Positions 243 to 48,088 of a DNA stretch of 64,000 nt are shown here, piece after piece; within the stretch, counting starts at the first letter, position 1; every line of letters starts with the position of its first letter. The notes under the pieces are model-generated. The model searched no databases. It worked only from the letters and a program-made list of their open reading frames with translations, and was not told the DNA's origin. A program made the translations under genes and the position numbers. The DNA lies in contig PXBH01000068.1 in NCBI GenBank assembly GCA_003565555.1, forward strand, positions 1-64,000, written 5' to 3'. Source of the stretch: Cryomorphaceae bacterium (GTDB lineage: Bacteria > Bacteroidota > Bacteroidia > Flavobacteriales_D > Cryomorphaceae).

Positions 243-2119
243 AATACGGGATGGTTTTTGGGAAAAACGGCGGTGACAGAAGTTCCGCTGCCCGGCCGGG
301 AGTCGATGTCAACACTGCCGCCGGCCACGCTGACGCGCTCACGGATATTGATCCGGCCTGCACCTTCCTCGGCCCTGATGTCCATGCCCGTGCCGTCGTC
401 CTCTACCGTGAGGTGGACTTCCTCTTCGTCCACCGCGGCCTGCACGAGAATTTGTTTCGGCGATGCGTGCTTTACGGCATTTTTCACAAGTTCCTGCGCC
501 ACGCGGTACACCGCACGGGAGGTCTCCGGGTCAACGGAGGTGTCATCGCCCAAAAACTGCAAAGACACGGGATAAGGGTGGCCGTCACATTGCTCGACAA
601 AGGAAGACAAGGCGGTTTTGAGGCCGTGCCGAATCAATATTTCGGGCATGAGGTTGTGGGCAATGCGCCGCACTTCGGCATCGGTTTTTCGAAGGGCGCC
701 GGCAAGGCTGTTTTGGTCGGCGCCGCTGCGCATTTGCGCCCGGATCACCGCAAGCTGCCCGCCGATCCCGTCGTGAAGCTCGCGGGCGAGGCGTTTTCTT
801 TCGTGCTCCTCCCCTTCGATGCGGGCTTTGAGCTGATCCACCGCAGCTTCCTGCTCGGCGCGGAGCATGCGTTCTCGGTGCAAACGCTCTTTGTTTTTAC
901 TGTGCCTGAAGACGGCAATCACTGTGATGATCAGCAATACTGATCCGGCTGCCGCGACAATGAGCCATGTGCCTTGGCGGGCGGCTTTGGCTTCACTCAG
1001 GGCTACATTCAGATCCAACTCGGCGATCTCGCGATCCTTTTGGGCGGTTCGGTATTTGGTTTCGAGTTCTCCGATAAGGGCGTCGCTTTCTTCATTGCGC
1101 ATCTCCTTGACGAGCGCCGTGTACAGGCGCGCCTGTTCGTAGGCTTCGGAATACATCCCGATTTCAGCGTAAGCCTCACTGAGGTAAACGTGCGCATTGC
1201 TCAGCAACTGTTTTTGACCGAGTTCTTCGGCCATGCCGATCACGGATTTGAGGATGGTCACCGCCGTATCTGCACGGCCGGCTTCTTTGAGGTAAAGGCC
1301 CAGATTACCGGAGACGTGGGCGATGTAAAAAGGATTTTCCGTAAGTCGGGCGCTTTTGAGCGCTGCTCTCGAAAAGGCCACAGCATCCGAGGTGCGGTTC
1401 GTCAGGTAGTACAGATCGGCGAGGTTATTTCCTGCGAGGTAGGTCACATGGGTGTTGCCGAGGTTGCGCCCGATTTCCAGAGCATCTTTGTAGTTCTTTT
1501 CGGCAGCGCTGTATTTTTCGCGCGACTTGGCACTGTACCCGCGGTTGATCAGGCAATCGGCGATACGCAAAGAGTCGCCGCGTTCAAATGCAAGCGTCAG
1601 GGCCTTTTCGAAATAAACCGAAGCTTTGTCGAATTGCTCAAGGTCCATAAAGATGCCGCCCGTATTGCCGAGGGCAGAAATCTGATGCGAAGTATCGCGC
1701 TCACTTTCATAAATTTCCAATGCCTTGAGGTAGCGGGTCGCGGCGCTGTCGAGCACACCTGTAAGATTGAAGGTAACACCCATATTGTTGTGAATCATTG
1801 CTATCCCTTGGGGGTCATTGGCCTTCATCATCAGCGAAAGTGCTGCACGGTACAGACCGAGCGCTTCGGAATAGCGGCCGGCATCGTTGTACATGATCCC
1901 TTTGTAAGCCTTGGCACGTGCCGCTCCCTCATAAAAGCTTTTCGCAATACTCACTTCAAAAAGGCTGTCGTAGCGGGCCATCGCAGCATCAGGGTCGACC
2001 GATTCCAGGGGATACGTGGCTTTCAATGCCTCACGCACGGCGGCGCTGTCTTCCGCGGTGTACTGTGCCAAAGTGACGAACGGAAAAACCGAAAGAAAGA
2101 TGAAGCAGCCTTTTTTCAC
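239..2119 (-). CDS. TPR-containing sensor histidine kinase (NarL/HisKA_3 type)
   Basis: A 626-residue kinase. A signal peptide (residues 1-18) precedes about six tetratricopeptide-like helical repeats (residues 40-340), presumably periplasmic. One membrane helix lies at 385-405, followed by a coiled linker, the HisKA_3 phospho-acceptor motif RELHDGIGGQ with H449, an N box around E543-N547 and the G1 box DDGTGMD (574-580). This class autophosphorylates on the His and passes phosphate to a LuxR-type regulator, here the gene that overlaps its stop codon. The start is GTG; it gives a clean signal peptide, and a weak TAATTTTC box lies just upstream. What the TPR domain senses cannot be told from the sequence. 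Confidence 0.92.
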   Translation of the reverse strand: MKKGCFIFLSVFPFVTLAQYTAEDSAAVREALKATYPLESVDPDAAMARYDSLFEVSIAKSFYEGAARAKAYKGIMYNDAGRYSEALGLYRAALSLMMKANDPQGIAMIHNNMGVTFNLTGVLDSAATRYLKALEIYESERDTSHQISALGNTGGIFMDLEQFDKASVYFEKALTLAFERGDSLRIADCLINRGYSAKSREKYSAAEKNYKDALEIGRNLGNTHVTYLAGNNLADLYYLTNRTSDAVAFSRAALKSARLTENPFYIAHVSGNLGLYLKEAGRADTAVTILKSVIGMAEELGQKQLLSNAHVYLSEAYAEIGMYSEAYEQARLYTALVKEMRNEESDALIGELETKYRTAQKDREIAELDLNVALSEAKAARQGTWLIVAAAGSVLLIITVIAVFRHSKNKERLHRERMLRAEQEAAVDQLKARIEGEEHERKRLARELHDGIGGQLAVIRAQMRSGADQNSLAGALRKTDAEVRRIAHNLMPEILIRHGLKTALSSFVEQCDGHPYPVSLQFLGDDTSVDPETSRAVYRVAQELVKNAVKHASPKQILVQAAVDEEEVHLTVEDDGTGMDIRAEEGAGRINIRERVSVAGGSVDIDSRPGSGTSVTAVFPKNHPVL

Positions 2120-2695
2120 AACAGCGGGTTGGGGGAGAAAATTACAAAAATCTCCGAAGTAATCGTACTTTCAGGGTAATATAAGGTTATCGCTCCCGCA
2201 AAATCGTCGCCCGTGCAGCGGATTTACCGCGACTGCGGTTCAGGCAGTGAAACCGATTAAACCTGACAACAGCGGGAACGGTCGGGAATACATCTTCACA
2301 ATGTTCGGCCTCAGAACCGGCAGCCGCCTTCAAATGAAGGCGGTTTGTGCATATACCCGCCTGCCGGGCCGACGCATGATGCAGCCGAATTTTCAAAAAG
2401 GAAAGACTGTACCCCGGCCATAAAGCACCCATTGTTCTGAGCAGTTTCCGGAATCAGCCCGGACATTCGCACCACAAATTTTCCCGAAAGGGAGCATGAA
2501 CCGGGACAAACAAGAAATAGATTCATTCGCATCATTTTGTTTTACATATACTTAACCCCGTTGAGCCCGTCAGATAAAAATTTCACCCGAGAACCGAAAA
2601 AAATATCGGGCAATTAAAATAAAAATCAGATATTTGCAGCCCCAAATTAATAACCGGAGTTTCGCACTCCAAAACCGTTAATAACAAAGCATCAC
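2120..2695. other. 576-bp intergenic region between divergent kinase and rpsP
   Basis: No convincing gene. Open frames on the minus strand here lack start context and resemble nothing I know. A short perfect hairpin, arms CCGCCTTCA and TGAAGGCGG, lies at 2324-2343 and is followed by TTTG; its role is unknown. A possible rpsP -7 box GATATTTG (one mismatch to TAnnTTTG) is at 2629-2636, about 60 bases before the rpsP start, leaving room for a leader. The AT-rich stretch 2530-2640 is typical of a promoter region. Confidence 0.5.
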
Positions 2696-3595
2696 ATGCC
2701 TGTAAAAATCAGACTTCAGCGCCACGGACGAAAGGGACATCCCTATTTTCACATTGTAGTGGCGGACGCTCGCGCCCCGCGTGACGGGAGATACATAGAG
2801 CGTCTCGGATTTTATGATCCGAATACCAACCCGGCAAGCATCGAGCTCGATGTAGACGGCGCCGTAAAATGGCTCGGAAACGGAGCCCAGCCCACGGATA
2901 CCGCCCGTGCCATCCTTTCATACAAAGGGGTTTTGTACAAGAACCACCTGCTGAAAGGCGTAACCAAAGGTGCCCTCACCGAAGAGGAAGCCGAAAAACG
3001 TTTTGCTTCATGGCTCGAAGAGAAACAAGCCAAAATCGAAGCCAAGAAGAAAGGTATTTCCGACGCAGCCTCCAAAGCAGATCGGGACCGCCTTGCCGCT
3101 GAAGCTGAGGTAAACAAAGCACGTGCGGCTGCAATCGCCGCCGCCAATGCACCTGAACCGGAGCCGGAGGCGGAAGCTGCCGCAGCTCCCGAGGGTGAAG
3201 CAGCGGAAGGAGATACGGCCGTAGCGGCTGCTCCCGCAGAAGAAGCGCCCTCAACCGAAGCCGCTCCGGCAGAAGAGGTGAAGGAGGAAGCTCCCAAAGC
3301 AGAAGCCAAAGAGGAAGCTCCGAAGGCTGAAGCCGCAGAAGAAGCTCCCAAGGCTGAAGCAAAAGAAGAGGCTCCGAAGGCTGAGGCCGAGGAAGAAGCT
3401 CCCAAAGCTGAAGCAAAAGAAGAGGCTCCGAAAGCTGAGGCCGAGGAAGAAGCTCCCAAAGCTGAAGCAAAAGAAGAGGCTCCGAAAGCTGAGGCCGAGG
3501 AAGAAGCTCCCAAAGCTGAAGCCAAAGAGGAGACTCCGAAGGCTGAAGCCGAGGAAGAAGCTCCCGCTGAGAAAAAAGAAGAAGAGAAAAAGTAA
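2696..3595 (+). CDS. rpsP: 30S ribosomal protein S16 with long repetitive acidic tail
   Basis: The first 80 or so residues are ribosomal protein S16 (MPVKIRLQRHGRKGHPYFHI; RYIERLGFYDPNT), a small-subunit assembly protein. Usual S16 proteins are about 80-90 residues, and Bacteroidota forms are often somewhat longer; this one has 299. After the core comes a Lys/Glu-rich helical stretch (100-150), an Ala/Pro/Glu-rich region (150-196), then ten copies of a nonapeptide EEAPKAEA[K/E/A] at residues 197-286 and a lysine-rich end. The frame is intact through the DNA repeat and ends with TAA. rimM follows, the usual partner in ribosome maturation, but a terminator hairpin lies between them. The S16 call is secure; the function of the tail is unknown. 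Confidence 0.95.
   Translation: MPVKIRLQRHGRKGHPYFHIVVADARAPRDGRYIERLGFYDPNTNPASIELDVDGAVKWLGNGAQPTDTARAILSYKGVLYKNHLLKGVTKGALTEEEAEKRFASWLEEKQAKIEAKKKGISDAASKADRDRLAAEAEVNKARAAAIAAANAPEPEPEAEAAAAPEGEAAEGDTAVAAAPAEEAPSTEAAPAEEVKEEAPKAEAKEEAPKAEAAEEAPKAEAKEEAPKAEAEEEAPKAEAKEEAPKAEAEEEAPKAEAKEEAPKAEAEEEAPKAEAKEETPKAEAEEEAPAEKKEEEKK
3284..3553 (+). repeat. 27/54-bp tandem repeat inside rpsP
   Basis: Ten in-frame 27-base units encode EEAPKAEA plus K, E or A. The last residue alternates K and E over most of the array, so the best DNA period is 54 bases; near-identical copies begin at 3389, 3443 and 3497. The repeat keeps the reading frame, so changes in copy number would lengthen or shorten the S16 tail without breaking it. 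Confidence 0.93.
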
Positions 3596-46599: not shown

Positions 46600-47313
46600 T
46601 CAGATCTGCGCGCCGGCGAGGAGGAAGTTGAGGAAAATTCCCGTCAGTAATGCAATTCCGAAGCTGAGCAAGGTGCCGATCATGATGTACTCGGTGAGCT
46701 TGCGGTCTCGGGCTTCTTTAAGGTCACCGAAGCGGAAAATTGATTTTGCCGCGAGCAAAAAACCTACGCCCTCCCACTGTCCGATCAGAATGAAAATGAG
46801 GATGAGCACCCGCTCGAGCATTCCGATGTATCGGCCCGCTTTTGCGAGGGAATTTTCTTCCCCGATTTCGGGCGAAAATTTTGAAAGGATGACCTGCATT
46901 GCAACAGCTGCGGGAACAGTCAAAAATGTCACCCCTGCCGCGATCGGAAAAAGAACAGACCCGAGGGCGCGCAAACCATCAACAGAAGGCTGCTCAAACC
47001 ACAACAACACAGCTGTGATTACCGCGAAATGTAATCCCTGATCCGCAAAGAACCAAAAGCGCCGAGAGTTCGGGCTTTGGGCGTATACCTTGGTGAGGTC
47101 AATGATGAGGTGGGCCGCGGAAATAATCAAGGCCGGCAGCCAAAAGCTTCGGCCCGACGTCAAGAGAATGAGCAAGGCAAAATGTACGAGGATGTGCAGA
47201 TATAACTTGGGTGAGCGGACCTTGCGCTCTTCCTTTTCCGCCACCCAAGTTCTCGGCTGCAGCACGAAATCGCCGATTAAGTGGGCCAATATGATTTGTG
47301 CAAAGAGCATCAC
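46600..47313 (-). CDS. DUF3307 membrane protein, partner of the SatD-like gene
   Basis: A 237-residue inner-membrane protein with about six or seven helices. The start MLFAQIILAHLIGDFVLQP is the DUF3307 signature, and LLTSGRSFWLPALIISAAHLIIDL follows, with conserved H and D residues inside helices (AHLIGDF, HILVHF, AHLIIDLTK) that could bind metal or protons. Its ATG overlaps the stop of the SatD-like gene by four bases, so expression is coupled. SatD next to DUF3307 recurs in Bacteroidota to my knowledge, but the function of neither protein is established. Confidence 0.86.
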   Translation of the reverse strand: MMLFAQIILAHLIGDFVLQPRTWVAEKEERKVRSPKLYLHILVHFALLILLTSGRSFWLPALIISAAHLIIDLTKVYAQSPNSRRFWFFADQGLHFAVITAVLLWFEQPSVDGLRALGSVLFPIAAGVTFLTVPAAVAMQVILSKFSPEIGEENSLAKAGRYIGMLERVLILIFILIGQWEGVGFLLAAKSIFRFGDLKEARDRKLTEYIMIGTLLSFGIALLTGIFLNFLLAGAQI

Positions 47314-47942
47314 GGCAGCAGGACTTTAATTTTTTCTCGGTACTTGACTAAGAGGGCCTGCACTTCATCCCATCGAGCGCGCGCAAGTCGCTCGCTTACT
47401 GACGATTGAGCGATCCCCAAACGCTCAGCCAGTTCAGCCTGCTTCAAATCGGATTCGCCAAGTAGCAGCGCCACAGCTTCAGCCGAATGCGGAGTCCATT
47501 GATCCATAAAAGCCGAAGCCAACTGCAGGTAGAAGTCCATGTCGCGATCCCAATCGGGATCGGGTGTGCGGATGGCCAGCTTTCGCTTCTCGGCGGTAAG
47601 CAGGTCGAAACGGCTGCCCGAATTTACAAATGCCTCGCCGTTGCGCTCCGTAACGGCTGGTGCATCATACTCGCACCGCCCTATGCCGATGGCCATGCGC
47701 ACATCGAGGTTCTTGACACATTTCACTGCTGCTTTGATTCTCAGCGCGGATTGAAGTGCATCTGCGGGCTCCTTCACCTCCAACTGAAAGCTGTCGCCCC
47801 GGTACACCTCCCAAGCAGAGGGTGAGGCACCCAATTGACTCAGCACCCGCTTCAAAGGCCCGAGCCAACGCTCGGGATCGCCGGCGCGCTTTGAACCGGA
47901 AATATCACCGGTAATGACGCTGATGTACGGGGATTTACTCAC
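47310..47942 (-). CDS. SatD-family protein with C-terminal helix-turn-helix
   Basis: A 210-residue soluble protein. The N-terminal SatD domain begins YISVITGDISGSKRAGDPER and continues through EVYRGDSFQLEV and VRMAIGIGRCEYDAP; the GDxF and GIG segments recall the palm fold of class III nucleotide cyclases, though the catalytic metal residues are incomplete. The last 45 residues are a helix-turn-helix (LKQAELAERLGIAQSSVSER). The start is GTG. A TATATTTG -7 box (47995-47988) gives a leader of about 40 bases, and three 24-bp dyads lie just upstream. It is probably a ligand-sensing autoregulator of the DUF3307 gene. Function inferred. Confidence 0.83.
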   Translation of the reverse strand: MSKSPYISVITGDISGSKRAGDPERWLGPLKRVLSQLGASPSAWEVYRGDSFQLEVKEPADALQSALRIKAAVKCVKNLDVRMAIGIGRCEYDAPAVTERNGEAFVNSGSRFDLLTAEKRKLAIRTPDPDWDRDMDFYLQLASAFMDQWTPHSAEAVALLLGESDLKQAELAERLGIAQSSVSERLARARWDEVQALLVKYREKIKVLLP

Positions 47943-47987
47943 GGTTGGTCTGCTTTACTCGGGATAGATTTCTGTGTGCACCCATGA

Positions 47988-47995
47988 CAAATATA
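47988..47995 (-). promoter_or_regulatory. -7 box (TATATTTG) of the SatD-DUF3307 operon
   Basis: A perfect TAnnTTTG on the minus strand, 45 bases before the GTG at 47942. No TTTG is found at -33; that position is occupied by the first operator-like dyad. Confidence 0.72.
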
Positions 47996-48008
47996 GAAAA
48001 AAATTCAA

Positions 48009-48088
48009 ATATCGGATTTATAAGCGATATTTTACAATATCGTTTTTAAAGACGATATTTGATAATATCGGCTATAATATCGATATTA
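48009..48088. promoter_or_regulatory. Three phased 24-bp dyads AATATCG-N10-CGATATT
   Basis: Identical half-sites form dyads at 48009-48032, 48037-48060 and 48065-48088, starting exactly 28 bases apart and separated by TTAC and TGAT. The N10 spacers differ, so only the half-sites are conserved. The first dyad covers about -26 to -49 relative to the start predicted from the TATATTTG box. The nearest HTH protein is the SatD-like product of the operon, so it is the leading candidate to bind here. Confidence 0.85.

Follow-up and report, generated by a model that had tools for sequence, protein, structure and literature searches.

The 64,000-nt stretch of DNA analysed here (the window) carries a two-gene operon in which satD, encoding a SatD-like protein with a C-terminal HTH, is followed by the gene for a DUF3307 membrane protein, and which lies behind three phased dyads (Table 1). 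Based on a comparison of these dyads and of SatD with their counterparts in related genomes, SatD is very probably a dedicated, cooperative autoregulator of the satD-DUF3307 operon, and most likely a repressor. The initial annotation had proposed cooperative regulation of this operon by SatD: the regulatory part is supported by the array, by its restriction to satD and by its co-variation with the SatD recognition helix, and cooperativity is suggested by analogy with a known system. The widespread SatD-DUF3307 pair would thereby gain a defined regulator, an operator and a readable DNA-recognition code, so that its function becomes testable.

Table 1. Features of the satD-DUF3307 locus, with positions in the window.
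Feature	Position	Strand	Basis
DUF3307, multi-helix membrane protein, 237 aa	46600-47313	-	profile match; overlaps satD stop
satD, SatD-like protein, 210 aa, palm and C-terminal HTH	47310-47942	-	ORF, profile search, predicted model
HTH of SatD, residues 168-188; recognition helix 179-188	47379-47441	-	model helices 168-175 and 179-188; co-variation
Putative -7 box TATATTTG	47995-47988	-	12 nt downstream of dyad 1; general consensus
Dyad 1 (promoter-proximal), AATATCG-N10-CGATATT	48008-48031	none	exact sequence match; architecture conserved in relatives
Dyad 2, AATATCG-N10-CGATATT	48036-48059	none	28 bp from dyad 1; exact match
Dyad 3, AATATCG-N10-CGATATT	48064-48087	none	28 bp from dyad 2; exact match

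The sequence of the three dyads, their 28-bp period and the lack of relation among their spacers are as first described, except that the starts given then (48009, 48037 and 48065) were each one base late. Exact copies of the dyad occur three times in the whole source genome (3.72 Mb), only before satD, and the other sites with one or two mismatches in these 3.72 Mb are scattered and unphased. Read from TAT, the unit of the array is TATCGx-N8-xCGATA followed by another N8; half-site orientation thus alternates every 14 bp, and the gap is eight bases inside a dyad as well as from one dyad to the next. With 10.5 bp to a helical turn, 28 bp correspond to 2.67 turns, successive dyads are rotated by 240 degrees, and three dyads, which is also the commonest number among the loci described below, make up eight turns. 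The two genes overlap at GTGATG (a 4-base GTGA overlap if DUF3307 starts at GTG), and the earlier view that the dyads belong to this satD-DUF3307 operon is supported.

Arrays directly before satD were already apparent among orthologs from the source order. Orthologs were then gathered from 395 genomes of the same class and from a genome collection, and a fixed model (TATxyz-N8-zyxATA, at least three copies, period 27-30) was run over 116 satD upstream regions, an array being called when its score lay above the 99th percentile of the null. Arrays were present in 107 of the 116 regions. Of 928 dinucleotide shuffles, 5 passed this threshold, and of 922 windows taken elsewhere in these loci, 1 did. 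The dyads are therefore found before orthologous operons, where they had been predicted, in a sequence that co-varies, and the retention of the period and of the TATxyz half-sites in these 107 regions agrees with the earlier view that the half-sites are under selection. Of 77 nonredundant satD loci, 72 have a period of 28 and five a period of 29, and the number of dyads ranges from 3 to 8 (three in 48 loci, four in 23, up to eight in the remainder). The dyad itself is constant in length, 20 bp in 76 of the 77 loci, the extra base of the period-29 arrays falling between dyads. The longest array, eight near-identical consecutive 28-bp dyads before satD (L038/L123; G092 C44:51879-52094), suggests a recent duplication of the unit.

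Searches of whole genomes gave the same association. A CG-type two-dyad pattern was matched in 16 of the 395 class genomes (0 matches for the reversed control pattern), and the matches listed adjoin satD, except one in genome G063 and one of those in genome G137. When 18 genomes were searched for three dyads of whatever specificity, 16 had matches, which by their coordinates always adjoin satD, and two had none; the control gave one match (G120). The initial annotation had named the presence of such dyads at many unrelated genes as an outcome that would speak against it; exact copies in the source genome, and the three-dyad pattern in the 16 genomes with matches, are instead confined to satD. 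As for G063, what remains of satD behind its array (L130, about 1470-1640) is a stub, MISVIT with a stop shortly after, and no DUF3307 match was found in that genome. In G001, a genome of the source genus, the satD reading frame behind the array (L011 1449-1605) breaks off after about 50 residues, DUF3307 does not follow, and base 4 is lost in two of the six half-sites. Both cases are apparent losses of satD that left a decaying operator relic, with a contig-level assembly error possible in either.

The inner triplet of the half-site varies by species (TATCGG, TATCGT, TATCTG, TATCAT, TATTAC, TATTCC, TATAGA and others). When mutual information was calculated for all pairings of a SatD residue with a triplet base across the 77 nonredundant loci, the top pair was residue 181 and base 5 (Z 23.8), followed by residue 172 and base 6, residue 180 and base 6 (Z 14.6), and residue 184 with bases 5 and 4 (Z about 10). 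Residues 180, 181 and 184 (S180, S181 and E184 in the source protein) are variable positions within the recognition helix of the predicted model, in which Q179 is invariant. A recognition code is readable from this comparison, residue 184 appearing to read base 4, residue 181 base 5 and residue 180 base 6. At base 4, C goes with E, D or G at residue 184, and T with R or Q (less strictly K); at base 5, G goes with S or T at residue 181, T with N, and A or C with A; at base 6, G goes with G at residue 180, G or T with S, and T or C with N or H.

Shared ancestry is rejected as the source of this pattern, because operator likeness tracks the three residues at every level of N-domain identity: operators lie at a distance of 0.12-0.21 when residues 180, 181 and 184 are the same and of 0.46-0.62 when they differ. 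With close relatives excluded, the exact triplet was predicted by the recognition residues in 22 of 35 cases versus 10 of 35 by the nearest relative. Among phylogenetically independent pairs, residue 184 had changed in 10 of 10 base-4 switches versus 8 of 29 pairs without a switch, and residue 181 in 15 of 17 base-5 switches versus 4 of 26. The correspondence of residue 180 and base 6 is weaker (10 of 15 versus 6 of 21), and this link is the weakest of the three because p values of about 0.001 for base 6 were obtained with some non-HTH residues as well in the same test. The co-variation of the triplet with residues 180, 181 and 184 over the 77 loci, and again in independent pairs, argues that SatD is the protein that binds the dyads of its own promoter, as the initial annotation had supposed.

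This assignment of SatD as binder rests on sequence comparison, and one may ask whether a different (global) regulator occupies the dyads and SatD is a mere neighbour. We consider this very improbable, since the operator triplet follows the recognition residues of SatD across independent pairs and the array occurs almost only at satD and decays where satD was lost. That the array is not an operator, but serves a mobile unit as a centromere or origin, in the manner of parS or iterons, is hardly tenable: phased dyads do resemble iterons, and satD relatives reside on small plasmids, yet the array lies directly before satD on chromosomal contigs in many families, where it is fused to the -7 box, and it is accompanied by no replication or partition gene in the window.

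The position of the array relative to the promoter bears on the sign of regulation. TAnnTTTG is the consensus of the Bacteroidota -7 box. Dyad 1 covers the -33 region of the source promoter, in agreement with the initial annotation. Over the 77 loci, TAnnTTTG boxes are phase-locked to half-sites, with which they share the outer TA (38 boxes, where the null gave 2.7 on average and at most 8). Such a box lies within the array in 30 loci, mostly fused to half-sites, and is missing from the inside of the array in the other 47, source locus included; at one locus (L006) it lies outside the array, 2-4 nt downstream. In 25 of the 77 loci, 7-10 nt separate the array from the start codon. SatD bound at a fused half-site would cover the -7 box, which favours repression, and bound SatD should also block transcription where the array ends this close to the start codon. 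From these arrangements repression appears likelier than activation. The sign may nevertheless differ among species, because 47 of the loci have no box inside the array, and activation would be possible in the source species, where 12 nt separate the box from the array and dyad 1 lies over the -33 region. An activating SatD would bind the array and recruit RNA polymerase from upstream of a promoter without a -33 element, which suits the outside position of the box at the source locus and L006 and the place of dyad 1, but agrees poorly with the many boxes inside arrays, mostly fused to half-sites, and with the arrays that closely precede start codons; we regard it as quite unlikely.

The nearest precedent for a repressing SatD, a parallel that the initial annotation had not drawn, is HipB, which was also the best, though marginal, match of the SatD HTH profile in the PDB (E 0.007). 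HipB binds TATCC-N8-GGATA cooperatively and represses hipBA (PMC3920265, PMC3376134), and its partner dimerises within operator complexes (PMC7029023). We located the operators O1-O4 of E. coli K-12 hipBA and found them spaced by 28, 39 and 28 bp. Dyads of both systems have TAT outermost and C at base 4 and stand in tandem, 28 bp apart, at the regulator's own promoter; it is this same 28-bp pairing that makes HipB-type cooperative assembly the nearest precedent. The HipB dyad, however, measures 18 bp between its TAT ends versus 20 for that of SatD, and the HipB operators form two pairs parted by 39 bp, whereas SatD arrays are unbroken runs of 3-8 dyads. Moreover, the HipA kinase partner is absent from the satD operon, in which the partner gene encodes the membrane protein DUF3307 and SatD has a cyclase-like domain of its own. 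By analogy, SatD looks like a single-chain counterpart of HipB-HipA, with the cyclase-like domain in the bridging place of HipA. A cyclase-like palm is thereby connected with phased operators of the HipB kind, and we found no account of the two together in our search of the open literature.

SatD belongs near the Pfam family PF16264, named after the sat operon of S. mutans: residues 6-187 match it with 27.2 bits, just under the cut-off of 29, which two relatives from the taxonomic family of the source pass with scores of 34-37. The protein is co-linear with orthologs that carry the same motifs (TGDI..S, RGDSFQ, VR..IGxG and the HTH). An AlphaFold2 model (mean pLDDT 90.9, pTM 0.89) consists of a palm of about residues 1-125 and the C-terminal HTH. 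Its best PDB match by Foldseek is the class III adenylyl cyclase Ma1120 (E 1.6e-4, probability 1.00, TM 0.4-0.5), with further matches to GGDEF domains, GTP cyclohydrolase III and Cas10/Csm1, so that the predicted structure sides with the nucleotide-cyclase-type palm earlier proposed from motifs. Neither D13 nor D50 varies in any of the 77 loci or across proteobacterial relatives, and in a profile alignment that is weak (hhalign probability 6%, E 0.006) both fall on the metal-binding aspartates that class III cyclases from relatives of the source genome carry (VITGDI/VLFTDF and RGDSFQ/IGDAYM). The class III transition-state Asn/Arg (GDxVNxAxR) is not conserved in the SatD orthologs of the 77 loci; the matching segment, placed by motif only, reads GxAFxxSGxxF, with N, R, H, Y or F at position 107 and C, K, A, L or R at position 111. 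SatD is therefore like the palms of class III cyclases, GGDEF and Cas10 in predicted fold and co-linear metal aspartates, but differs from them in having no conserved transition-state Asn/Arg and in its fusion to an HTH. The invariant aspartates make a metal-nucleotide site in the modelled palm likely, and with the Asn/Arg not conserved, cyclase activity is uncertain.

Mycobacterial cyclase-HTH proteins also combine a cyclase domain and an HTH in one chain, but unlike SatD they are large, contain an ATPase and have an HTH of the LuxR type, and we know of no phased operator array for them. A functional study of SatD was not found in the open literature; a paper on cyclase-like proteins considered as a source (PMC4886424) concerns DUF2652 instead.

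The DUF3307 protein matches its Pfam family (PF11750) with 96.7 bits (cut-off 23, E 1.3e-27), as do 50 of 50 orthologs. Its model is all-helical and confident (pLDDT 92), has no match in the PDB (best E 0.83), and no other convincing Pfam relation was seen. Its invariant residues include H11, H40, H44, H68, D72, Q92 and H95, and D15 is almost invariant; the location of this His/Asp set on separate predicted helices suggests an intramembrane metal site. The open literature on DUF3307 came down to one unrelated phage paper.

The predicted palm also raises the question of whether SatD is a second-messenger synthase and DUF3307 its membrane effector, in a CBASS- or Panoptes-like system whose dose is set by the array, a reading compatible with autoregulation. 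The Foldseek matches to Ma1120, GGDEF and Cas10/Csm1 palms, the two metal aspartates invariant across phyla and the occurrence of the pair nearly alone on a 3.8-kb plasmid would all fit; given that the class III transition-state Asn/Arg is not conserved, that PADLOC models gave only generic HTH matches for the pair and that no defence context was seen in Bacteroidota, we think it unlikely.

For SatD as autoregulator, we propose that an HTH dimer would bind each TATxyz-N8-zyxATA dyad, residues 184, 181 and 180 of the recognition helix reading x, y and z. The 28-bp spacing, with half-sites alternating every 14 bp, would let neighbouring dimers touch via their cyclase-like domains, the palms bridging SatD dimers much as HipA bridges HipB dimers on the hipBA operators. 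An all-or-none complex could then form over the promoter and control DUF3307, and a nucleotide at the palm domain might release or tighten it. Repression, palm-domain bridging and this nucleotide-driven release or tightening are steps that we infer, and ligand control of SatD is put forward as a hypothesis for which the modelled palm offers a plausible metal-nucleotide site. More tentatively still, and with some doubt, SatD could coat the promoter as a continuous helical assembly in which each monomer makes two-fold contacts of two kinds in alternation, through its HTH inside a dyad and through its palm from dyad to dyad. This assembly would be built or broken by a nucleotide that the palm-palm interface binds or converts, and the promoter would read the nucleotide pool and switch on the membrane metallo-protein DUF3307. 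If true, this would make the pair a new, mobile, two-gene nucleotide-sensing module.

SatD was found in 47 of the 395 class genomes, 45 of them with DUF3307, and DUF3307 in 67 of the 395; genomes with DUF3307 only have mostly short forms of about 124-150 aa. Beyond Bacteroidota, the pair occurs in Salinivibrio, Vibrio, Pseudomonas fragi, Enterobacter and an E. coli/Klebsiella plasmid. This mobilizable 3.77-kb plasmid, pEC34A (NC_019077.1, L148), has the SatD-like/DUF3307 pair at 1792-3481, and its other annotated genes encode Rop, MobA and one small protein, a setting that suggests selectable or selfish plasmid cargo. The satD-DUF3307 region of pEC34A had no match among complete E. coli genomes, and SatD was not found in a phage collection.

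In several relatives from outside Bacteroidota and from viral contigs, dyads with a period of 28 or 29 bp are built from different half-sites (TGGCC..GGCCA, TTAGC..GCTAA, GTAAC..GTTAC and GTCAACC..GGTTGAC). Such remote arrays are clear in L142, L143, L144 and L150, comprise two dyads in L147, L152 and L156, are marginal in L145 and are not significant in L146, L148, L151, L157 and L158; since some of the remote loci have no significant array, we do not claim universality outside Bacteroidota. On plasmids, the pair lies near a DUF4365 protein in L152 (4140-7480, Enterobacter kobei) and near toxin-antitoxin genes in L151 (1-8630, Pseudomonas fragi), neighbourhoods that are frequent for defence or stability modules.

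Genome G137 carries a second SatD-type array (L136; G137 C1:418038-418085, dyads at 1501-1548), made of two dyads of the TATCGG type with a period of 28. Its triplet matches the SatD of the same host, and it precedes a short ORF resembling a small lipoprotein, with an ATP-binding protein and an ASCH-like protein as neighbours. It is possibly an accessory element that borrows SatD control.
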